From positions 248,001 through 312,000 of the forward strand of contig NZ_SETE01000004.1 in assembly GCF_004152935.1 (NCBI RefSeq): a stretch of 64,000 bases of DNA, read 5' to 3'. The translations under genes were made by a program, and so were the position numbers. This document shows positions 6,268-59,836 of the stretch, in pieces. Source of the stretch: Brumimicrobium glaciale (GTDB taxonomy: Bacteria > Bacteroidota > Bacteroidia > Flavobacteriales_D > Crocinitomicaceae). The notes under the pieces were generated by a model. The model saw only the letters and a program-made list of their open reading frames with translations. It did no database searches and was not told where the DNA came from. How positions within the stretch are numbered: the stretch's first letter is position 1; every line of letters starts with the position of its first letter.

Positions 6268-6430
6268 AAGAGTTATCATGTTATGAGGTTGTCATGTTAC
6301 GGAGTTATGATTTGATGGAACTACAATTCTAAAATTAAATTTCCATCAAATCATAACAACATAACTTCATAACAACCTAACCAGATAACTTCATCACAAC
6401 ATCACAACATCACAATATAACTGAAAAAAA

Positions 6431-6793
6431 TTGACCATCAAAAGCCACAAAGATTTAAATGTTTGGAAAGAAAGCATGGATCTCGTTGAAGACATTTACT
6501 CCATCTCAAAAAACTTCCCAAAAGAAGAAATTTATGGATTAACTAGTCAAATGAGAAGATGTGCAGTTTCCGTACCATCAAATATTGCTGAAGGAGCTGG
6601 TAGAAAAGGAGAAAAAGAATTTGCCCGTTTTTTATACATAGGTTTAGGTTCCCTTTCAGAATTAGAGACACAATTCGAAATAGCAATCCGCTTAAAGTAC
6701 ATTCCAAACGAAATTCAAACAGAGGTGATTTTTGACAAAATAATTTATATCAGAAGAATGCTTTCTAAACTAATTAAAAGCATCGTTTTATAA
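6431..6793 (+). CDS. four-helix bundle protein (S23 / 'IVP' family)
   Basis: A 120-aa protein with the family hallmarks: an opening HKDLNVWKESMDL, a middle CAVSVPSNIAEGAGR, and a closing LSELETQFEIA helix. Family knowledge: these small four-helix bundle proteins were first seen as ORFs inside 23S rRNA intervening sequences and are scattered in Bacteroidota genomes, often inside polysaccharide loci. Their function is unknown. The likely start is a TTG at 6431 right after an A-tract; there is no nearby in-frame ATG that keeps the conserved HKDL segment. It is flanked by AT-rich spacers full of CATAACTTCATCACAACATCA-like simple repeats. Confidence 0.8.
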   Translation: MTIKSHKDLNVWKESMDLVEDIYSISKNFPKEEIYGLTSQMRRCAVSVPSNIAEGAGRKGEKEFARFLYIGLGSLSELETQFEIAIRLKYIPNEIQTEVIFDKIIYIRRMLSKLIKSIVL

Positions 6794-6848
6794 CTAGATA
6801 ACAACATCACTTCATCACAAGATCACATCACAACAATTTTAAAAAAAA

Positions 6849-8258
6849 ATGAAAATTAAAAACATCTGCTGCATCGGAGCTGGTTACGTTGGAGGACCAA
6901 CAATGTCAGTTCTTGCACTTAAGAATCCAAACATAAAAGTTACAGTTGTTGATATCAATCAAGATCGAATTAACTCATGGAATGACGAAAACTTGGGTGA
7001 TTTACCTATATATGAACCTGGATTAGAGGAAATCGTTAATGAAGCAAGAGGAAGAAACTTGTTCTTTAGTACTGATGTAGAAAAAGCGATTGATGAAGCA
7101 GAAATGATCTTTATCTCAGTAAACACTCCAACTAAAACCTATGGTAAAGGAAAAGGAATGGCGGCTGATTTAAAATATATAGAACTTTGTGCTAGACAAA
7201 TCGCTAAAGTTGCAACGACAGATAAAATAGTCGTTGAAAAATCCACTTTACCTGTAAGAACGGCACAAGCCATTAAAGATATTCTAGACAATACAGGTAA
7301 CGGAGTAAAATTTCAAATTTTATCGAATCCTGAGTTCTTAGCAGAAGGTACAGCAGTTCAAGATTTACTGACACCAGACCGTGTTTTAATTGGTGGTGAG
7401 GAAAGTGAAGAAGGTACAATAGCTATGAATTCCTTAGTTGAAATATATGCTACATGGATTCCTAAAGAAAATATATTAACCACCAATGTTTGGTCTTCTG
7501 AACTTTCAAAATTAGTTGCCAACGCATTCCTTGCCCAAAGAGTATCCTCTATTAATGCTATATCAGAACTTTGTGAAGTCACTGGAGCTGATGTTGGTGA
7601 AGTGAGCAGAGCAATTGGAATGGACAGCAGAATTGGTCCTAAATTCTTAAAAGCTTCTGTTGGCTTTGGAGGTTCTTGTTTTCAAAAAGATATTCTCAAC
7701 TTAGTTTACATTGCAAAAACTTATGGTTTAAATGAAGTTGCAGATTATTGGGAGCAAGTAATTATTATGAATGATTACCAAAAAAGAAGATTTGCCGATA
7801 ATATAGTAAGTACTCTTTATAATACCGTATCTGGAAAGAAAATAACTTTCCTAGGTTGGGCTTTTAAGAAAGACACCAACGATACCCGTGAATCTGCGGC
7901 TATTTATGTGGCTGATGCTTTAATGAATGAACAAGCAGAAATAATTGTTTATGATCCAAAAGTAAGCGAGAAAAGAATTTATGAAGACCTTGATTATTTA
8001 GGTTCAAGAAGTCCAGAAGAAAATAGAAGATTACTCAAAGTCGTTAAAGACCCTTATATAGCTAGTGAAGAAGCTCATGCTATTGCTATTTTGACTGAAT
8101 GGGATGAATTTATTGAATATGATTGGAAGAAAATATACGATTCAGTAGTGAAACCAGCTTTTGTATTTGATGGACGAAAGTTATTGGATGCAGAATTAAT
8201 GTCAAAAATTGGATTTGATTATTCTTCAATTGGAATTTCTAAAACGCAAAACAAATAA
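6849..8258 (+). CDS. ugd: UDP-glucose 6-dehydrogenase, eukaryote-like long form
   Basis: A 469-aa enzyme that oxidises UDP-glucose twice to UDP-glucuronate with NAD+. The dinucleotide motif is [11 protein letters not shown] (8-18) and the catalytic Cys is C277 in [10 protein letters not shown]. Many stretches ([45 protein letters not shown]) read much like animal and plant UGDH and less like the shorter Ugd/TuaD forms usual in bacteria. The product feeds the next gene, whose ATG overlaps this stop codon (ATG at 8258 inside TAATG), so the two are translationally coupled. It starts at the ATG at 6849 after an A-tract. The function is very likely. Confidence 0.93.
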
Positions 8259-21650: not shown

Positions 21651-21727
21651 GTTTACAATATGCTCAAAACCCCAGCGGGGTGGTGTATGTCACCATAGTA
21701 TGCAATGCTATGTTTTCATATCCTTCG

Positions 21728-21811
21728 GCTTAGGGATAGCAGCGGCATCCTTTTTATTACCGCGAGTTTTTTAACTCGTTGTAATAAAAAGATACAGCGG
21801 AAAGCCCGACC
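21728..21811 (+). ncRNA. candidate structured RNA element, copy 1 (flavobacterial repeat, possibly Flavo-1-like)
   Basis: The pattern is TAGGGATAGCAGCGGCATCC, a T-run, a hairpin (TTACCGCGAGTT / AACTCGTTGTAA), an A-run with AAAAAGATACAGCGGAAAGCCC, and GACC. GGGAT...ATCC and CTTTTT...AAAAAG pair around the hairpin. This AGCGGCAT/AGCGGAAAGC arrangement recurs between genes across Flavobacteriia and looks like a conserved RNA. The link to the Rfam Flavo-1 motif is from memory and unchecked. Confidence 0.5.
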
Positions 21812-22018
21812 TGATTTTATTGGAGTTTACGGAGAGAAAATTAGGAAAGCCCCGAATAAATCAGAGTGAGAAACAGAATGAGAATGAAGAAAAAGATCAT
21901 CCTATATCCCTTAAGCTCTCCCTTTAACATAATCGAAGACCTACTCTTTAAATAAAAACCCCAGCGGGGTGGTGTATGTCACCATAGTATGCAATGCTAT
22001 GTTTTCATATCCTTCGGC

Positions 22019-22100
22019 TTAGGGATAGCAGCGGCATCCTTTTTATTACCGCGAGTTTTTTAACTCGTGGTAATAAAAAGATATAGCGGAAAGCCCGACC
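22019..22100 (+). ncRNA. candidate structured RNA element, copy 2
   Basis: Second copy of the element at 21728-21811 with a better-paired apical hairpin (ATTACCGCGAGTT / AACTCGTGGTAAT, one G-T pair). The change TT to GG restores pairing with the CC of the 5' arm. Confidence 0.5.
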
Positions 22101-22409
22101 TTATTTTCTTGGAGTTTACGGAGAGAAAATTAGGGAAGCCCCAAATAAATCAGAGTGAGAAACAGTACCGATAATTATCGGTAGAGAATGAAGAAAAAGA
22201 TCATCCTATATCCCTTAAGCTCTCCCTTTAACATAATCGAAGACCTACTCTTTAAATGAAACTCCATCAGCTGACGGGTGATGAATTTCGCCATAGTATG
22301 GAATGCTATGATTTCATAAAAAAATCTCTTCTCCGCGAACCTCCGCCCCTCCGCGAATCACATTCGGCAAGCTCAGTGCAGCGCTCTACGTAATTTTTCA
22401 TTTTTCATT

Positions 22410-25419: not shown

Positions 25420-27330
25420 GGGATTCCTCAATGTAAGTCTTAATTCCTAAGAAAAAGTATTCCTTCTTAGACCAATAAAAAAGGGATTCCTCAATGTTGT
25501 GCATTTTCGGAATGACTGAGGAAACTCTTTTTTGGTTACTCCTTATTGTAGATGTTAACTCTAAGAAAATGTATTCACTTTTCAGACTAGTAAAAAAGGG
25601 ATTCCTCAATGCTGTGCATTTTCGGAATGACAGTCGGTTGGGTAGTTTATTGGGAAAGAGGTGCAAAAGCGAAGCTTTTGCACCTCTTTCCCACCCCACT
25701 CAAACACCACATTGTCATTCCGGATGGAGTGAAACGACTGAGGAATCTCTTTTTTGGTTTACTCCTTATTGTAGATGTTAACCCTAAGAAAATGAATTCA
25801 CTTTTCAGACTAGTAAAAAAGGAATTCCTCAATGCTGTGCATTTTCGGAATGACAGTCGGTTGGGTAGTTTTTGTGAGAAAGTAGATAAAGCTTCGCTTT
25901 TTCTGCTTTCTCACACCTCAAAAAAATACATATTGTCATTCCGGATGGAGTAAAACGACTGAGGAATCTCTTTTTTGGTTTGTTCCTATTGTAGATGGTA
26001 ATCCTAAAAAAACACTTTCACTTTTCAGACTAGTAAAAAAGGAATTCCTCAATGCTTTGCATTTTCGGAATGACAGTAGGTTGGGTCTTTTTTTGTGAGA
26101 AAGTAGATAAAGCTTCGCTTTTTCTGCTTTCTCACACCTCAAAAAAATACATATTGTCATTCCGATGGAGTAAAACGACTGAGGAATCTCTTTTTTGGTT
26201 TGTTCCTATTGTAGATGGTAATCCTAAAAAAACACTTTCGCCTTTCAGACTAGTAAAAAAGGGATTCCTCAATGCTGTGCATTTTCGGAATGACAGTCGG
26301 TTGGGTGGTTTTTTGTGATAAAGTAGAAAAAGCTTCGCTTTTTCTGCTTTATCACACCTCTAATAAATACACACTGTCATTCCGATGGAGTAAAACGACT
26401 GAGGAATCTCTTTTTTGGTTTGTTCCTATTGTAGATGGTAATCCTAAAAAAACACTTTCGCCTTTCAGACTAGTAAAAAAGGGATTCCTCAATGCTTTGC
26501 ATTTTCGGAATGACAGTAGGTTGGGTCGTTTTTGTGAGAAAGTAGAAAAAGCTTCGCTTTTTCTGCTTTCTCACACCTCTAATAAATACACACTGTCATT
26601 CCGATGGAGTAAAACGACTGAGGAATCTCTTTTTTGGTTACTCCTTATTGTAGATGTTAACCCTAAGAAAATGAATTCACTTTTCAGACTAGTAAAAAAG
26701 GAATTCCTCAATGCTGTGCATTTTCGGAATGACAGTCGGTTGGGTAGTTTATTGGTAAAGAGGTGCAAAAGCTTCGCTTTTGCACCTCTTTACCACCCCA
26801 CTCAAACGCCACATTGTCATTCCAGATGGAGTGAACCGACTGAGGAAACTCTTTTTTGGTTACTCCTTATTGTAGATGTTAACTCTAAGAAAATGTATTC
26901 ACTTTTCAGACTAGTAAAAAAGGGATGCCTCAATGCTGTGCATTTTCGGAATGACAGTCGGTTGGGTCGTTTATTGGGAGAGAGGTGCAAAAGCTTCGCT
27001 TTTGCACCTCTCTCCCACCCCACTTAAACACCACACTGTCATTCCGATGGAGTGAAACGACTGAGGAATCCCTTTTTTGGTTACTCCTTATTGCAGATGT
27101 TAACTCTAAGAAAATGTATTCACTTTTCAGACTAGTAAAAAAGGGATTCCTCAATGCTGTGCATTTTCGGAATGACAGTCGGTTGGGTAGTTTATTGGTA
27201 AAGAGGTGCAAAAGCTTCGCTTTTGCACCTCTTTACCACCCCACTCAAACACCACATTGTCATTCCAGATGGAGTGAACCGACTGAGGAAACTCTTTTTT
27301 GGTTACTCCTTATTGTAGATGTTAATGTTT
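25420..27330. repeat. array of ~220-bp nested palindromic repeats, left part
   Basis: Nine starts of the AAAAGGGATTCCTCAATG motif occur at about 25484, 25598, 25821, 26041, 26261, 26481, 26700, 26922 and 27143, so the period is 219-223 bp. Each full unit has an outer pair (GGGATTCCTCA / TGAGGAATC), a middle pair (CGGAATGACA / TGTCATTCCG), an inner 19-20-bp hairpin with loop GAA or TTC, and a roughly 60-bp linker ending in TTTTCAGACTAGTAAAAAA. Open frames running through it on both strands are repeat translations, not genes. Confidence 0.95.
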
Positions 27331-27416
27331 AGAAAATGACAAGGCAAACTTTTAATTTTAAAAAAGATAGAATATTTTATTTTTATGTTTTGATATTTAT
27401 TACTAACTTGATAAGT

Positions 27417-27719
27417 ATGAAAACCACTAAATTATATTTCACGTACATGTTGTCCAATTATAGTAATAAATTGCTTTATGTTGGATCTTCTAGTAATCTT
27501 TCACAAAGAGTTCATAGGCATAAGATCGGATACTTTGAAGGCCACACAAAGAAATACAACATTAATAGACTAATCTATTTTGAAACTTATACCTCAATTG
27601 ATGAGGCAATAAAAAGAGAACAACAGATTAAGAGTTATAATAGATCAAAAAAGAATAAACTTATAAATAAGGTGAATCCTCAGTGGAGAGAATTAGAAGC
27701 GCCCTTAAACAATTTCTAA
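27417..27719 (+). CDS. GIY-YIG nuclease family protein (UvrC-like, YhbQ type)
   Basis: A 100-aa single-domain protein. The GIY and YIG halves appear as FTYML (8-12) and LYVGSS (20-25), followed by the conserved Arg (R31 in LSQRVHRH) and the metal-binding Glu (E68 in KREQQIK), so the catalytic residues appear intact. The C-terminus is NPQWREL as in many Bacteroidota members. The ATG at 27417 is preferred over the longer frame from 27336, which would prepend a hydrophobic stretch lacking family similarity. It lies inside the palindromic repeat array, between units ending at about 27330 and restarting at about 27720. Family members nick or cleave DNA; the target here is unknown. Confidence 0.85.
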   Translation: MKTTKLYFTYMLSNYSNKLLYVGSSSNLSQRVHRHKIGYFEGHTKKYNINRLIYFETYTSIDEAIKREQQIKSYNRSKKNKLINKVNPQWRELEAPLNNF

Positions 27720-28660
27720 TATATTTAAAAGAGATTTCTCCACCACTGAAAATCACAGATTTTAAGCGCTGTTCGGGATGACAGCTGGTGAGGCGCACTT
27801 TTGGGAAAGAGTTGGAAAAGCGAAGCTTTTTCAATTCTTTCCCATACCAATCAAAGACATATTGTCATTCCGATGGAGTGAAACGACTGAGGAATCTCTT
27901 TTTTGGTTTGTTACTATTGTAGATGGTAATCCTAAAAAAAAACATTCCCTTTCAGACTAGTAAAAAAGGGATTCCTCAATGCTGTGCATTTTCGGAATGA
28001 CATTCGAATAGGTGGTTTATTGGGAAAGAGGTGTAAAAGCGAAGCTTTTTCTGCCTTCTCACACCTCAAACAAATACACACTGGCATTCCGTATGGAGTA
28101 AAACGACTGAGGAATCTCTTTTTTGGTTACTCCTTATTCTAGATGTTAACTCTAAAGGAAAACAATCCCTATTCAAACTAGAAAAAAAGGGATTCCTCAA
28201 TGCTGTGCATTTTCGGAATGACAGTCGAATAGGTGGTTTATTGGGAAAGAGGTGTAAAAGCGAAGCTTTTTCTGCTTTCTCACACCTCAAACAAATACAC
28301 ACTGGCATTCCGTATGGAGTGAAACGACTGAGGAATCTCTTTTTTGGTTACTCCTTATTGTAGATGTTAACTCTAAAGGAAAACAATCCCTATTCAAACT
28401 AGTAAAAAAGGGATTCCTCAATGCTGTCATTCCGATGGAGTGAAACGACTGAGGAATCCCTTTTTTGGTTACTCCTTATTGCAGATGTTAACTCTAGAAA
28501 ATACGCATTCACTTTTTAAACCAATAAAAAAATGATTCATCCCGATTGTTTCATCGTAATAGTAACGACAGTGGGCTGGGTTGTTGTTGTTTATTTGGAA
28601 AAATAAAACACCTGTCATTCCGGATGGAGTGAAATGACTGTGAATCCCTTTTTGAATATT
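27720..28660. repeat. array of ~220-bp nested palindromic repeats, right part
   Basis: Repeat units resume after the nuclease gene: a half-unit at about 27730-27960, then starts at 27968, 28189 and 28410 (period 221 bp), decaying into single motifs to about 28660. Two of these units carry a left hairpin arm of one type and a right arm of another. No gene is seen up to ribD at 28738. Confidence 0.93.
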
Positions 28661-31143: not shown

Positions 31144-31217
31144 GGCTCTGTAGCTCAACTGAATAGAGCACTACATTACGGCTGTAGAGGTTTCAAGTTT
31201 GAATCTTGACAGGGTCA
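31144..31217 (+). tRNA. tRNA-Arg (anticodon ACG)
   Basis: A 74-nt cloverleaf. Acceptor arms GGCTCTG and CAGGGTC pair with two G-T pairs, discriminator A. The D stem is GCTC/GAGC, the anticodon stem CTACA/TGTAG with loop TTACGGC (anticodon ACG), and the T stem TCAAG/CTTGA. CCA is not encoded. It is followed at once by tandem repeats that include its own 3' end. Confidence 0.93.
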
Positions 31218-31675
31218 CTAAGAATAAAAGCTTTCACTTTAGTGGAGGCTTTTTTCATTTTATATTTTATCTGATTCCGATTTTTTTCGGGACAAGCAAA
31301 TATAAAATGAAAAAAGACTGGCATTCTGAAAGAATGTAAAGATTTTATTCGGAATTCGGAGCGTTAAACGATCTGTAATCTTGACAGGGTCACTAAGAAT
31401 AAAAGCTTTCACTTTAGTGGAGGCTTTTTTCATTTTATACTTTGTCTGATTCCGATTTTTATCGGGACAAGTAAATATAAAATGAAAAAAGACTGGCATT
31501 CGGAAAGAATGTAAAGATTTTATTCGGAATTCGGAGCGTTAAACGATCTGAAATCTAGACAGGGTCACTAAGAATAAAAGCTTTCACTTTAGTGGAGGCT
31601 TTTTTCATTTTATATTTTATCTGATTCCGATTTTTATCGGGACAAGCAAATATAAAATGAAAAAAGACCAAGAAT
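31204..31675. repeat. three tandem 175-bp units carrying the tRNA-Arg 3' end and terminator
   Basis: TCTTGACAGGGTCACTAAGA occurs at 31204 and 31379, and with one change (TCTAGAC) at 31554. Each unit carries the last 14 nt of the tRNA, the terminator hairpin, an inverted TTCATTTTATATTT...AAATATAAAATGAA pair around a TTTTTCGGGAC or ATCGGGAC core, and an ATTCGGAATTCGGAGCG segment. The third unit ends early. From 31676 to 31919 nothing gene-like is seen. Confidence 0.93.
31228..31255 (+). terminator. rho-independent terminator after tRNA-Arg
   Basis: AAGCTTTCAC, loop TTTA, GTGGAGGCTT, then a T run: a nine- to ten-pair stem with G-T pairs. It is copied in both downstream tandem units. Confidence 0.75.
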
Positions 31676-35744: not shown

Positions 35745-36150
35745 AAATACAGAGGAATGATATATTAAAAGTTGACAGACACAAAAAAAAAACCAAAATT
35801 CCAGCGGAACGACATTTTAATAGTTAACAGACACAAACCAGCAAAACAAACCAAGTTCCAGCGGAGCAACATATTAATAGTTGACAGACACAAACCAACA
35901 AAACAAACCAAGTTCCAGAGGAACGGCATATTAATAGCTCAAAATAAAAATCAATAAAACCAAACAAAGCTCCAGAGGAGCGACATATTAATAGTTGACA
36001 GAAACAAACCAAAGTTCCAGAGGAACGAAATATTAATAGCTCAAAAATAAAAACCACCAAAACCAAACAAAGCTCCAGAGGAGCAACATATTAATAGTTG
36101 ACAGATACAAACAAAAAATCAACCAAAGTTCCAGCGGAACGACATATTAA
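35745..36150. repeat. REP-like hairpin array, left of transposase
   Basis: Seven clear units plus a degenerate one near 35749. Each unit has a short hairpin, GTTCC-AGA-GGAAC or GCTCC-AGA-GGAGC (AGC in some loops), followed by GACATATTAATAG or a close variant and an A/C-rich linker such as ACAGACACAAACCAACAAAA. The two stem types alternate. Open frames on both strands here are repeat translations. The remaining sequence to 36329 is AT-rich with no gene. Confidence 0.92.
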
Positions 36151-36329
36151 TAAAACAACGCAGCGCCTTATTCCCTCCACTCTATTCAGCAATAGTAAAA
36201 ATATAATCATTTATTCATCAATACAGTATTCACTATAAATCCCATTGAAATAAAAAATAAACGAATTAAATTACTGGTAAACTCATTTATTTCACTACCT
36301 TAATTTAGAACCTTTAAATCACTTAAATT

Positions 36330-36779
36330 ATGGCTAACACATATTCTCGAATTTATTATCACGCAATTTTCTCTGTAAAAAACAAAGATTATGGAATTCA
36401 TTCAACATGGAAAGATGAATTATACAAATACATTACAGGCATTATTAAATCTAACAATCAAAAAGTTATGATTATTAATGGAATGCCTGACCATGTTCAT
36501 TTATTAATTGGAGCAGTACCAGATTTTAATCTATCAGTTCTAGTAAAAGAAGTAAAATGTAATTCTTCAAAATGGATAAATAAAAACAATTTAACCAAAG
36601 CTAAATTCAGATGGCAAACTGGTTTTAGCGCATTTTCATTAGGATATTCGCAATTACCAATGGTTACAGAATATATTAAAAATCAAGAAATTCATCATAA
36701 GAAAAGAACATTTCGAGAAGAATATCTTAAATTTTTAGACCTTAACGAAATCGAATATGATATACGTTACGTTTTCTAA
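36330..36779 (+). CDS. IS200-like Y1 transposase (RAYT-like)
   Basis: A 149-aa HUH single-strand DNA transposase/nuclease. The metal-binding HxH is H55 and H57 in DHVHLLI, and the candidate catalytic Tyr is Y115 in EYIKNQEIHHKKRTF, a well-kept family motif. The length equals IS200/IS605 TnpA. It sits in the middle of a REP-like array, which makes it a REP-associated tyrosine transposase (RAYT) candidate rather than a free insertion sequence: no IS ends with own hairpins or TnpB gene are visible. A hairpin terminator follows at 36862-36879. The residues look intact. Confidence 0.88.
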   Translation: MANTYSRIYYHAIFSVKNKDYGIHSTWKDELYKYITGIIKSNNQKVMIINGMPDHVHLLIGAVPDFNLSVLVKEVKCNSSKWINKNNLTKAKFRWQTGFSAFSLGYSQLPMVTEYIKNQEIHHKKRTFREEYLKFLDLNEIEYDIRYVF

Positions 36780-36899: not shown

Positions 36900-37985
36900 G
36901 GATTAAGCTTCCTAAGGAGCGGCATATCAATAATTAAAAGAAACAAACCAAGTTCCAGAGGAACTGCATATCAATAGCTCAAAAATAAAAACCACCAAAA
37001 CCAAACAAAGCTCCAGAGTAACGGCATATTAGTAGTAGACAGACACAAACTACCAAAATCAACCATCCAATCACAACTCAAGCTATGGACGAACAACATA
37101 TCATTAATTAACAGAAGCCAAGTTCCAGATGAACGAAATATTAATAGCTCAAAATAAAAATCAAAAAAACCAAAAAAAGTTCCAGAGGAACGACATATTA
37201 ATAGTTAACTGATACAAACTACAAAAATCAACCAGCAAATCGCAATTCAAGCTATGGACGAACAACATATCATTAATTAACAGAAACCAAGTTCCAGAGG
37301 AACGAAATATTAATAGCTCAAAATAAAAATCAACAAAACCAAACAAAGCTCCAGAGGAGCGACATATTAATAGTTGACAGACACAAACTACAAAAATCAA
37401 CCAGCAAATCACAACTCAAGCTATGGACGAACAACATATCATCAATTAACAGAAACCAAGTTCCAGAGGAACGGCATATTAATAGCTCAAAATAAAAACC
37501 AACAAAACCAAACAAAGCTCCAGAGGAGCGACATATTAATAGTAGACAGACACAAACTACAAAAATCAACCAGCAAATCACAACTCAAGCTATGGACGAA
37601 CAACATATCATCAATTAACAGAAACCAAGTTCCAAAGGAACGGCATATTAATAGCTCAAAATAAAAACCAACAAAACCAAACAAAGCTCCAGAGGAGCGA
37701 CATATTAATAGTAGACAGACACAAACTACCAAAATCAACCAGCAAATCACAATTCAAGCTCCAGAGGAATGACATATTAATAGTTAACAGACAATCCAAA
37801 AAAACAAACCAAGTTCCAGAGGAACGAAATATTAATAGCTCAAAAATAAAAACCAACAAAACCAAACAAAGCTCCAGAGGAGCGAAATATTAATAGTTAA
37901 CAGAAACAAACTACCAAAATCAACCATCCAATCACAACTCAACTCAAGCTCCAGAGAAGCGGCATATTACTAAAACAAAGCACTG
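36900..37985. repeat. REP-like hairpin array, right of transposase
   Basis: About fifteen units of the GTTCC/GCTCC hairpin with the ATATTAATAG tail. From about 37120 to 37740 they form a larger 169-bp period: GTTCC unit with a GCTCAAAATAAAAACC linker, GCTCC unit with a TAGACAGACACAAAC linker, and a decayed unit (CTATGGACGAACAACATATC). All units face the same way as those left of the transposase. No gene is seen up to 38130. Confidence 0.92.
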
Positions 37986-46848: not shown

Positions 46849-47133
46849 TGGGTTGCAAAGCTAAGCCTTAATTCTTTTAAAAGGGATTCCTCAGTCGTTG
46901 CACTTCATCGGAATGACAGGGTTTTCGAGCGTTAGGTGGGAAGAAGGTTGCTGAAAACCCGCACATGATCTGTCATTCCGAATGATGACAAAATCTATGA
47001 TTTTCGGCACCAGAGGAATCCCCTCTTTCTTTTGCAAGAGTTCAATTTTACGTAAAAATTGTATGATGATTAATTGTTATAATCCGTAAATTAGTTAATC
47101 ATCAGTATTGATTTTCGACCTAACTTGTTAACC
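46849..47133. mobile_element. MITE-like element with imperfect terminal inverted repeats
   Basis: It starts TGGGTTGCAAAGCTAAGCC and ends with the near-complement CGACCTAACTTGTTAACC. Inside are GGGATTCCTCAG, CGGAATGACAGGG, CTGTCATTCCG and CAGAGGAATCCCC, the same nested inverted core as the 25-28 kb array. A second copy is at 57135-57452 and an inverted half at 42975-43172. No transposase gene is inside, so it would need one in trans. Confidence 0.75.
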
Positions 47134-57134: not shown

Positions 57135-57452
57135 TTGGGTTACCAAGCTAAGTCGTAATTATTTAAAAAGAGATTCCTCGTCGTTTCACTCCATCGGAAT
57201 GACAGGTTTTCGTTGGCTTGGGTGGGGTAAAATTTGCTCAAGCTTCGCTTGAGCAAATTTTACCCCAAAGACTTCTCTAAGAACTGTCATTCTGATAGTT
57301 GAGAAAATATTAGATTTTAACAACTGAGGAATCCCTTCTTCCTTTTTGCTAAAGTTTAACTCTAGATAAAATTAATTAATGCGATTATCTGCTGTATTAT
57401 TAAAAAACATTTCGTTAAAATTAGGGATTAACGACCTATATTGGCAGCCCAA
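57135..57452. mobile_element. MITE-like element with terminal inverted repeats and perfect central hairpin
   Basis: The ends TTGGGTTACCAAGCTAAG and the reverse complement of TTGGCAGCCCAA agree at about 17 of 24 positions. The core has GAGATTCCTCG, CGGAATGACAGG, a perfect 21-bp-arm hairpin (57223-57243 and 57247-57267, loop TTC), CTGTCATTCTG and TGAGGAATCCC. It is a copy of 46849-47133 with a different hairpin stem. Confidence 0.8.
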
Positions 57453-57781: not shown

Positions 57782-57908
57782 TTTCATAGGGACGGTTTTG
57801 TATGGGTGATTTGTATGGGGGGTTCGTATGGACGGTTCCATATGGGTGATTTGTAGGGGCGGTTTTGTAAGGGCGATTTGCAAATCGCCCCTACAGAACC
57901 GCCCCTAC
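57782..57908. repeat. tandem and palindromic GGGGCGGTT/GGGCGATTT repeat
   Basis: GGGACGGTTTTGTATGGGTG-like units repeat loosely, then nested palindromes follow: outer arms 57853-57864 and 57897-57908, inner GGGCGATTTGCAAATCGCCC (57871-57890). The last bases overlap the end of the OmpA-family gene. Confidence 0.88.
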
Positions 57909-59836
57909 AAATCTTTACGCAAATCCACACTTTGGATTTCAATTTTTCTTTCGCTTGCTGCTGCTCTGGAATACACCGAATTTTTCTTGTCGTTTGGGTT
58001 GTCACTAACAATTTTGTTGGCTTCGTCTTCTCCGAATGGGATTTGAACTATTCTTAATTCTCCTCCATTTTCTGATGTGTTATTTAAGTATTTCTTGAAA
58101 ACACCATTATCAAAAGTGCTCAGATAATTTACCATCGAAGCAATTCTTCTTTTAGTCAAATTCACATTGTAATCGTTTTTTGCCAAGGGACTTGCGAAAC
58201 CTTTGACGGTTAATTCAATTTTGCGACCGCGTTCTAATTCTGTAATCAGAAGTGAAATAAATTGGTTTAAATCATTTACTCCTTGCTTGACATATTCTAA
58301 AAAGAAATCTTCGATATCATCTTTTGCATCATCACTTTTCTCTCCTTTTAATCCAACTGAATACTTTTTCTTGTATTCGTCCATCATTGCGATATAATCA
58401 TTATAACTATCTATATAATTGACATTGGAAACTGTGTCGGTTGATCTTGGATTTGGTACATCATTATGGAAGTAAAGCGTGACCGGCAATCTCCTGTTTA
58501 AATCTTCTAGCGTTTCTTCAATTGTTGGTGGAAAATCAATTAATGGTTTCCTAATGCTATAAATATCGCTGCAACATGTTGGATTTTTACTGTAATTACT
58601 TCCCAAACGATTAGAACTGAAAAATGCAGAATCATTTGAAGAAGTCTCAAAATAATACAAATCGTTGGCTGGCGAATTAATCGGTTCCATCATATTTTCT
58701 GGATCTCCGAATGAAGTATTGTAATGCGATTTAAAAACATCATAACCTCCAAAACCATCATGCCATGAGCTACTAAAATACAGTGTTTTCGTTTTACCGT
58801 CCCAAAAAGGCGATAATTCATTGTCAATAGAATTTAATGTTCTAATATTAATTGGTCGTTGAAATTGGTTTCCATCTTTTATAAAACTGTACCACAGGTC
58901 CATTCCTCCTCTACCTCCTTCTTGGTCAGAAACAAAAAACAATACTTCGCTTCCATCCCATTCGCCAATAAATGGCATTGTCGTATTTGAATTCTCAACA
59001 TTTATTATGCTTCCTAAGGTGTCGATGTCAACGAATTTCTCTCCATCAACATAAGCCACAAGAATTTTGCATTTATAATTGTATCCATCATCTTTACAAT
59101 AACTAAAGTAGAATCGATTTCCATCTAAGCTAAAAGTTCCATTTCCAGTATGCACATTTTCGTAGGCCAATTCATCAATGCGGTTTTCAGTTTCAAATTG
59201 TCCTTCCTTTATTACTGATGAATATAAATGTGTGCGATAAGATGGATCGTAAACTTCTTCGCTTGTGCTTATAGAATCTGCTCGAAGTGATGAGAAAATT
59301 AATTGATTCTTATGAATTCTATGTCCAAACTCAGCATTTGGCGTATTGATATGATCTGGCAAAGCCTCAAAAATATAATCTAATGAATCTCCTTGATTGG
59401 ATTTTGCCCAAATACAAGATTGAATTTCCGCTCTACTTTTTTGATATAAGTATCCTCTTCTGTCATTCCTGTATTTCTTCTTTCCCAATTTAAAAAGCTC
59501 CAAAGCTTTATCATATTCTCCAGTTTGTTTGAGCATTAAACCATATTGTAATAAACTGGATGGATATAGCTCTGCTCCTTCTCTGCCATATACTTTTCCA
59601 TAATAAAAAGCTGCTTTTGGATAATCTTTATATGCTCTTAATGTTTCGGCATATTCCCATAAAATATCAATTGTATTAGAATCAATTTTCATTGCTTTTT
59701 CATAATACTGCAAAGCATAGACATAATCTCCTTCTTGAAATTTTTCTTGGGCAAACTCAAGATATTTTTTCAACTCTTGCCCAAAAGAAGCTGTTGACAA
59801 AAACAGAAAGATGAATATTATATAAAATCTGGACAT
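57905..59836 (-). CDS. OmpA-family protein with TPR and PD40-type propeller
   Basis: A 643-aa envelope protein. It has a signal peptide (FIFLFLSTASFGQ), TPR-like units at about residues 25-120 (YVYALQYYEKAMKIDSN, AFYYGKVYG, EYDKALELFKLGKKKY), a PD40 beta-propeller region (about 160-440, GNRFYFSYC, LWYSFIKDG and LYFSSSWHDGFGGYDVFK), and a C-terminal OmpA-like peptidoglycan-binding domain (TVKGFASPLAKNDYNVNLTKRR). This is the usual partner of PorP/SprF genes in T9SS-type cassettes. It overlaps porP by 19 bp. Its stop codon lies in the adjoining repeat arm. Confidence 0.9.
   Translation of the reverse strand: MSRFYIIFIFLFLSTASFGQELKKYLEFAQEKFQEGDYVYALQYYEKAMKIDSNTIDILWEYAETLRAYKDYPKAAFYYGKVYGREGAELYPSSLLQYGLMLKQTGEYDKALELFKLGKKKYRNDRRGYLYQKSRAEIQSCIWAKSNQGDSLDYIFEALPDHINTPNAEFGHRIHKNQLIFSSLRADSISTSEEVYDPSYRTHLYSSVIKEGQFETENRIDELAYENVHTGNGTFSLDGNRFYFSYCKDDGYNYKCKILVAYVDGEKFVDIDTLGSIINVENSNTTMPFIGEWDGSEVLFFVSDQEGGRGGMDLWYSFIKDGNQFQRPINIRTLNSIDNELSPFWDGKTKTLYFSSSWHDGFGGYDVFKSHYNTSFGDPENMMEPINSPANDLYYFETSSNDSAFFSSNRLGSNYSKNPTCCSDIYSIRKPLIDFPPTIEETLEDLNRRLPVTLYFHNDVPNPRSTDTVSNVNYIDSYNDYIAMMDEYKKKYSVGLKGEKSDDAKDDIEDFFLEYVKQGVNDLNQFISLLITELERGRKIELTVKGFASPLAKNDYNVNLTKRRIASMVNYLSTFDNGVFKKYLNNTSENGGELRIVQIPFGEDEANKIVSDNPNDKKNSVYSRAAASERKIEIQSVDLRKDL

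Follow-up and report, generated by a model that had tools for sequence, protein, structure and literature searches.

The array of nested palindromes at positions 25420-28660 of the stretch of Brumimicrobium glaciale DNA analyzed here (contig NZ_SETE01000004.1, positions 248,001 to 312,000; all 64,000 nucleotides are called the window) is the locally amplified form of a nested-palindrome family that is dispersed in intergenic regions, and carries a gene for a single-domain GIY-YIG nuclease. The inner stems of the palindromes differ between units by matching changes on both arms, and this covariation is best read as the mark of DNA copying inside palindromes, not of a conserved RNA. Taken together, the array, its nuclease gene, the copying between arms and a spread driven by the nuclease form the explanation that we consider best as a whole and, on balance, probable.

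Organization of the array

Eleven palindrome units are spaced by about 220 bp, with their centers at 25672, 25894, 26115, 26335, 26554, 26774, 26996, 27217, 27823, 28042, and 28263. Tandem Repeats Finder reports a period of 220 with 8.2 copies (25514-27325) and a period of 221 with 2.9 copies (27801-28431), confirming the eleven or so units of roughly 220 bp of the preliminary description. Each unit is composed of a left arm GATTCCTC...GGAATGACA, which occurs with variants, an inner palindrome with arms of about 20 bp and a 3-base loop (GAA or TTC), and a right arm TGTCATTCC...GAGGAATC, and in all eleven units the inner palindrome is nested inside the two outer inverted arms. From arm to arm a unit measures about 145–165 bp. 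The loop is GAA in four of the units and TTC in seven, and both the flipping of the loops and the paired stem differences quoted earlier are present in the sequence. DNA hairpins of the sequence GCGAAGC are exceptionally stable. Units 10 and 11 (28042 and 28263) are poorly paired chimeras with arms of two different stem types, and one or two mismatches per 20 pairs are found in the units at 25894, 26115, 26335, 26554, and 27823. Both ends of the array are closed by partial or degenerate units. Folding of one 172-nt unit yielded z-scores of -8.4 as DNA and -7.5 as RNA, and none of 200 shuffles equaled it. A hairpin scan of the window revealed other palindromes, and outside the array the GAA/TTC loop type was found only at 57223-57267. 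Of the two single elements reported before, the one at 57135 is complete, while the one at 46849 has outer arms and lacks a good inner hairpin. The palindrome array of the earlier description is real; the GIY-YIG gene inside it had been overlooked. The features are:

25422-25525 (unstranded), left end of the array, partial units consisting of outer arms without inner hairpin (sequence; repeat families D4 and D8)
25600-25747 (+), unit 1, inner palindrome 25651-25693, loop GAA
25823-25968 (+), unit 2, inner palindrome 25873-25915, loop TTC
26043-26188 (+), unit 3, inner palindrome 26094-26136, loop TTC
26263-26408 (+), unit 4, inner palindrome 26314-26356, loop TTC, stem differing from units 2, 3, and 5 by a paired change
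26483-26627 (+), unit 5, inner palindrome 26533-26575, loop TTC
26702-26849 (+), unit 6, inner palindrome 26753-26795, loop TTC, stem differing from unit 1 by a paired change
26924-27070 (+), unit 7, inner palindrome 26975-27017, loop TTC, paired change other than that of unit 6
27145-27292 (+), unit 8, inner palindrome 27196-27238, loop TTC, with the stem of unit 6
27417-27719 (+), GIY-YIG nuclease gene (PF01541), between units 8 and 9
27733-27896 (+), unit 9, located 3' to the nuclease gene, with inner palindrome 27802-27844, loop GAA, left arm of another type
27970-28116 (+), unit 10, chimera of two stem types, inner palindrome 28021-28063, loop GAA
28191-28337 (+), unit 11, chimera like unit 10, inner palindrome 28242-28284, loop GAA
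28412-28458 (+), unit without hairpin, the two outer arms almost joined (sequence)
28534-28648 (+), degenerate last unit, only the right arm well kept (sequence; repeat families D6 and D7)
57135-57452 (-), dispersed single copy of the subfamily of miniature inverted-repeat transposable elements (MITEs) described below, inner palindrome 57223-57267, imperfect flanking duplication
46885-47020 (unstranded), degenerate dispersed copy, outer arms only, without a good inner hairpin

Covariation of the inner stems and inversion of the loops

In an alignment of 40 stems (39 distinct), 97.7% of the 780 cells are paired and two-sided changes occur at 16 of the 20 stem pairs. The covariation score, uncorrected for shared ancestry, is 0.668 compared with 0.161 for shuffles and at most 0.177 for slid controls, and close comparisons from unit to unit give more paired changes than independent mutation would. 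The stems of type A (25672, 26774, 26996, 27217) differ by paired changes only, two in number, at a flank divergence of 4–7%. Those of type B (25894, 26115, 26335, 26554) show one paired and one unpaired change at a flank divergence of 5–12%, and one G·T is common to all four. In these eight units, counted with 27823 and both chimeras (28042, 28263) left out, three paired changes and one unpaired change were observed, whereas independent mutation on a star tree is expected to result in 0.05–0.13 paired changes (probability of three or more, 2e-5 to 3e-4) and in 10 to 15 unpaired ones. In the array, the two sides of a stem pair change together and lone changes are rare.

Outside the array, nearly identical copies of one subfamily carry the loop in both orientations. 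Ten copies of the MITE subfamily, i.e., those with an intact palindrome that were examined among 13 long matches to its left end in the genome, differ in their flanks mostly by 1.5–6% (12–14% for the damaged copy L069; loci carry L numbers and genomes G numbers throughout), and their stem differs by a single base. The loop is TTC in six of them and GAA in four. It is this mixture of loop states alone that is used as loop evidence, and not the tree.

Template switching between inverted repeats, by which arms are homogenized and spacers inverted, is described in PMC8604942, as are GAA/TTC inversions of three-base spacers in yeast. In PMC8794818 it is argued that template switching is able to create and maintain them; loop inversions are reported there to be rare in the RNA genes studied. 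In the array, a polymerase switching its template within a palindrome would copy one arm onto the other and invert the loop; the covariation of the inner stems would then result from arm copying, and pairing would be a property of the DNA.

Alternatively, the units might constitute a structured RNA or a bidirectional terminator in which an A-run, a long stem and a T-run are selected and the stems covary by compensatory mutation. The RNA fold of the 172-nt unit (z -7.5) would be in agreement with this, as would the genomic position: both neighbors were called by a crude open reading frame (ORF) rule for 33 of the 49 elements outside the array, and 16 of these elements lie between convergent ORFs, 15 between tandem and two between divergent ones. 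However, the paired changes are too many for a compensation in two steps and both loop orientations occur in near-identical copies. Furthermore, of the 1060 pairs in 52 distinct stems, the two chimeras excluded, 1031 are Watson-Crick, 9 are G·T, 7 are A·C, and 13 are of other types, in a count made by the orientation of the elements, weak for 15 of 60, and not by the direction of transcription. G·T and A·C are therefore equally rare, and the higher tolerance for G·U than for A·C that marks an RNA family was not found in these 1060 pairs. A search against Rfam 15 at gathering scores returned only Flavo-1, elsewhere in the window, and no match over the array. The missing Rfam match and the lack of a G·U preference led to the rejection of an RNA family, and we regard a selected RNA or terminator as quite unlikely.

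The preliminary description had offered two causes for the covariation, selection on the fold and copying from arm to arm. Copying fits better than a selected fold because a G·U preference is absent, the loop is inverted in near-identical copies and paired changes are in excess; selection on the palindrome itself is still conceivable in view of the slowly changing MITE stems. Two-sided stem changes are usually taken as proof of a functional RNA, and here they look like DNA copying between arms, in a family that is big enough to measure this process in nature.

Distribution of the repeat family

In a DNA search of the own genome (4.27 Mb, 12 contigs), 97 matches were obtained, and many of these are solitary copies at other locations; 36 places were read, two of which were picked for GIY-YIG paralogs. 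The stem sequences vary widely among these elements. The center of the loop is 39–42 nt away from the inner motif on either side in all but two of 32 elements, the exceptions being L053 (48 and 46) and L069, which lacks the right motif; in a wider set of 59 elements from own and related loci this distance amounts to 34–47 nt. The exact pattern GGAATGACA-N(70-95)-TGTCATTCC is present in seven of ten genomes of the genus, i.e., in the own genome and six of nine congeners, and is absent from all 49 more distant genomes; in reversed form it is missing from each of the 59. The spread into related genomes, which had been proposed as a check, is hence seen within the genus and, for the exact pattern, not beyond it.

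The constant distance in 30 of 32 elements and the slow change of the stem in the MITE copies would also suit DNA palindromes that are selected as binding or cruciform site of a host protein and spread by recombination only. Nevertheless, the stem sequence is almost free, the distances widen to 34–47 nt in the larger set and the exact pattern is confined to one genus among the 59 genomes tested, which makes such a site improbable.

One subfamily, characterized by TGGGGTAAAATTTGC, is a MITE of the IS1595 type. Its elements are about 310–320 bp long with ends of the type TTGGG.TACCAA and 8-bp duplications. By reading, perfect 8-bp duplications were recognized at L044, L045, L046, L048, and L049; a script recovered L046, L049, and L144 with a mismatch-free duplication and L050, L139, L141, L146, L151, and L155 with a single mismatch in it. 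In L069 the right end is lost, and the copy in the window (57135-57452) has an imperfect duplication. In a control of the end search with mispaired flanks, the best score was at most 4 in two of 150 cases. As several real loci scored 3–4 seemingly by chance, the repeated ends and not the scores carry the assignment as MITE. A candidate at L060 with GGTTCTACC ends and an 8-bp duplication was dropped, its score of 4 being equaled by the chance-like cases at 26335, 57245, L069, L148, and L170. The congener G007 encodes at L140 a 307-aa transposase of the IS1595 family (PF12762 and NF033547) between ends ATGGGTTACCAA that are similar, not identical, to those of the subfamily. The earlier statement that no named family has this structure thereby stands for RNA, given the lack of an Rfam match over the array, and falls in that one subfamily is an IS1595-type MITE and that the array carries a GIY-YIG gene.

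It might be argued that all elements are ordinary MITEs mobilized by IS1595, with the array and the nuclease gene as accidents of one insertion. The ten copies share a common palindrome and TTGGG.TACCAA-type ends (one without the right end), several have perfect 8-bp duplications, and the transposase of the congener lies between similar ends. On the other hand, the script search for IS1595-type ends with duplications gave none for the array units, on which ground a pure MITE origin was discarded; the gene is found together with its 3' element again at an unrelated site and the link of repeat and nuclease is seen across the phylum, as outlined below. We therefore judge this origin to be rather unlikely.

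The GIY-YIG gene and the site of the array

The gene at 27417-27719 matches Pfam PF01541 with an E-value of 5.8e-13 and encodes 100 aa from the ATG at 27417, which matches the start of a congener copy; a longer ORF starts at 27336. In a sequence search of the PDB, the only matches to the protein were UPF0213 (1zg2, E 0.0011) and UvrC (1yd6, E 0.16), and three loci were obtained when a large collection of genomes was scanned with it. The congener G001 encodes a 64% identical gene between elements of the family, and the genes next to it look by eye like polysaccharide export genes. A single gapped local alignment of window positions 27375-27898 with G001 begins some 40 nt before the gene and takes in the whole 3' element. 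Gene and 3' element look like one block that would have come to lie at two unrelated places, because both species share the type of left arm of the 3' element, which is unlike that of the other units in the window. The protein is constrained, as the proportions of nonsynonymous and synonymous differences between both copies (pN 0.21, pS 0.78) indicate.

The exact family motif was absent within 1.5 kb of ribD in nine of nine relatives. In five of them (G001, G005, G007, G008, G009) an ftsX-like gene abuts ribD; in G002 a gap of about 515 bp between both genes contains, by eye, another type of repeat, and in G003, G004, and G006 the ftsX-like gene lies outside the fetched stretch. The array is best read as a probable insertion, the absence from the site covering the array as a whole and not the gene alone. 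From these comparisons the repeat family appears to travel, in part, with the GIY-YIG gene.

With regard to the mechanism, we infer that the nuclease may drive the spread. The GIY-YIG enzyme would cut the repeats, perhaps extruded as hairpins or cruciforms, and repair of the break from another copy of the repeat would spread gene and repeats and build tandem arrays. Both steps are less certain than the copying between arms. Such a spread may be likened to the homing of an endonuclease, with a dispersed repeat as its target. The link with the nuclease provides a candidate engine for the repeats. By title or beginning of the abstract, no paper on GIY-YIG genes with such repeats was found among those listed from the open-access literature, and among the papers listed in a search with sequence strings none was relevant by title.

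Small genes flanked by repeats across Bacteroidota

Matches to PF01541 were drawn from 61 Bacteroidota genomes, and about 12 kb were taken at 20 of 29 newly fetched places, 19 of which contain the GIY-YIG ORF. A strong match between the 250-bp flanks (score above 16) was observed for 16 of 19 GIY-YIG genes and for four of 111 neighboring ORFs (p 3.5e-14); these four comprise two PDDEXK_3/GxxExxY genes, one 23S_rRNA_IVP gene and one repetitive ORF. A permutation test over 48 loci agrees, with 32 loci above the 95th percentile. In a test of 13 of the 16 flank pieces, the flank sequence recurs in the same genome for at least nine of 13 GIY-YIG pieces compared with at least three of 13 control pieces. 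An intergenic control piece of G103 is itself a repeat with dozens of copies across the contigs of that genome.

The PDDEXK_3 and 23S_rRNA_IVP genes of Bacteroidota (L254-L283 and L284-L313) are often flanked by repeats as well, and the types of repeat differ by family. Flank matches above 16 were obtained for 16 of 28 PDDEXK_3 genes (23 of 600 permutations) and for 15 of 26 23S_rRNA_IVP genes (16 of 600 permutations). With words chosen after the data had been seen, CGCAGAG/ACACGAA-type words occur on both sides of 12 of 28 PDDEXK_3 loci and of none of 126 neighbors; GTCAT words flank six of 25 GIY-YIG loci of the phylum, two of 25 in the genus and two of 126 neighbors on both sides, and are not enriched on any one side (9/25 vs. 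34/126). Short tandem repeats are found on either side of eight of 26 23S_rRNA_IVP loci and of one of 126 neighbors. Two GIY-YIG genes follow tRNA genes and the 3' ends of the tRNAs are repeated beyond them (L214/L242 and L227/L251).

Further observations were made at individual loci. In a Paracaedibacteraceae metagenome-assembled genome (L102), a GIY-YIG gene has on either side about 82 nt of similar sequence, in which the beginning of the following gene is included. ARAGORN predicts a tRNA with the anticodon tta (stop) beside another one (L183:1388-1465), which may be a damaged tRNA. In the window itself, a gene for a 23S_rRNA_IVP four-helix bundle (ORF 6431-6793) within 6300-6860 has short repeats of the CATAACAA/AACATCACA type on both sides.

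The fact that the link is found across Bacteroidota points to a general class of nuclease genes that reside in repeats and are passed over by annotation. Tentatively, and as a possibility rather than an expectation, small GIY-YIG genes across bacteria might be selfish, residing in dispersed repeats and spreading through cleavage of the repeat copies, with PDDEXK_3/GxxExxY and 23S_rRNA_IVP genes doing likewise with repeat types of their own; in this genus the repeat would have become a nested palindrome whose perfection is maintained by template switching.

Points against arm copying and nuclease-driven spread

Several results weigh against the explanation favored here. The ten MITE copies show no paired stem change and one unpaired change, while 6.3 to 8.4 would be expected from the rate of the flanks, a deficit with P of 0.002–0.013. 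This slowness is not predicted by copying alone, and reversion or selection must be added. A tree of the loop states is no better than one with shuffled labels (five changes; shuffled mean 6.2, minimum 4). The two chimeric units keep badly paired arms and the unit at 27823 has two mismatches in 20 pairs. As to the nuclease, it is not needed for the MITE subfamily with its IS1595-type ends. Most elements have no GIY-YIG gene nearby, and in the genus only four of 21 small GIY-YIG genes and none of nine large ones have, by script, an element of the family at a distance of up to 700 nt, a count in which L200 with its bulged stem was missed and the array gene of G001 was not among the 21. That flank repeats of GIY-YIG genes are palindromic in general was considered and not supported (three of 16 at p<0.05).

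Other repeats

Palindromes of another type (TTGTAGAG..CTCTACAA) are located beside uvrC in the own genome and two congeners (L194 around 1875, L198 around 1378, L199 around 1379), and the letters of their inner stem differ between species with pairing kept. In the window, two Flavo-1 RNA copies stand in tandem (21716-21815 and 22005-22104), one 19-bp hairpin occurs twice at a distance of 269 bp (603-643 and 872-912), GGGGCGGTT-type repeats at 57783-57913 end in a near-perfect 33-bp palindrome without loop, and a 175-bp tandem repeat of 2.7 copies with 96% matches (31202-31668) overlaps the end of a tRNA-Arg gene. An IS200-like Y1 transposase gene (36330-36779; PF01797, NF033573) is placed between arrays of CCAGAGGAACGACATATTAATAG repeats (35750-36152 and 36945-37942). 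This looks like a system of the type formed by repetitive extragenic palindromic (REP) sequences and REP-associated tyrosine transposases (RAYTs), separate from the palindrome array.

Comparison with known systems

REP palindromes with their TnpA_REP (RAYT, Y1) resemble the present family in combining dispersed intergenic palindromes with a single-domain nuclease. Here, however, the nuclease is GIY-YIG and not Y1, and with 145–164 bp from arm to arm at a period of 220 the units are not of the REP palindrome size of about 20–40 bp. A RAYT/REP origin was considered and rejected: Y1 genes do exist in the own genome (nine matches), but none of the eight fetched Y1 loci holds an element. The Neisseria repeats dRS3/NIME likewise have inverted ATTCC-N-GGAAT arms around a variable center; in their general description they are set apart by sequence, genus and center. 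IS1595-type MITEs are matched by one subfamily in terminal inverted repeats, 8-bp duplications and a similar-ended transposase element in a congener, whereas no such ends were found on the array units and the core palindrome also occurs in other flanks and beside some GIY-YIG genes. Free-standing GIY-YIG homing endonucleases are similar in that a small constrained GIY-YIG gene is part of a probable insertion absent from relatives; they differ in that no intron or intein is seen here and the putative target is a dispersed repeat. A parallel for the stems is quasipalindrome correction, i.e., template-switch mutations which are reported to render arms identical in one step and invert the loop, including GAA/TTC in yeast (PMC8604942; PMC8794818). 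Those are scattered events, while here, judging from the pattern, a whole dispersed family seems to have been shaped by switching.

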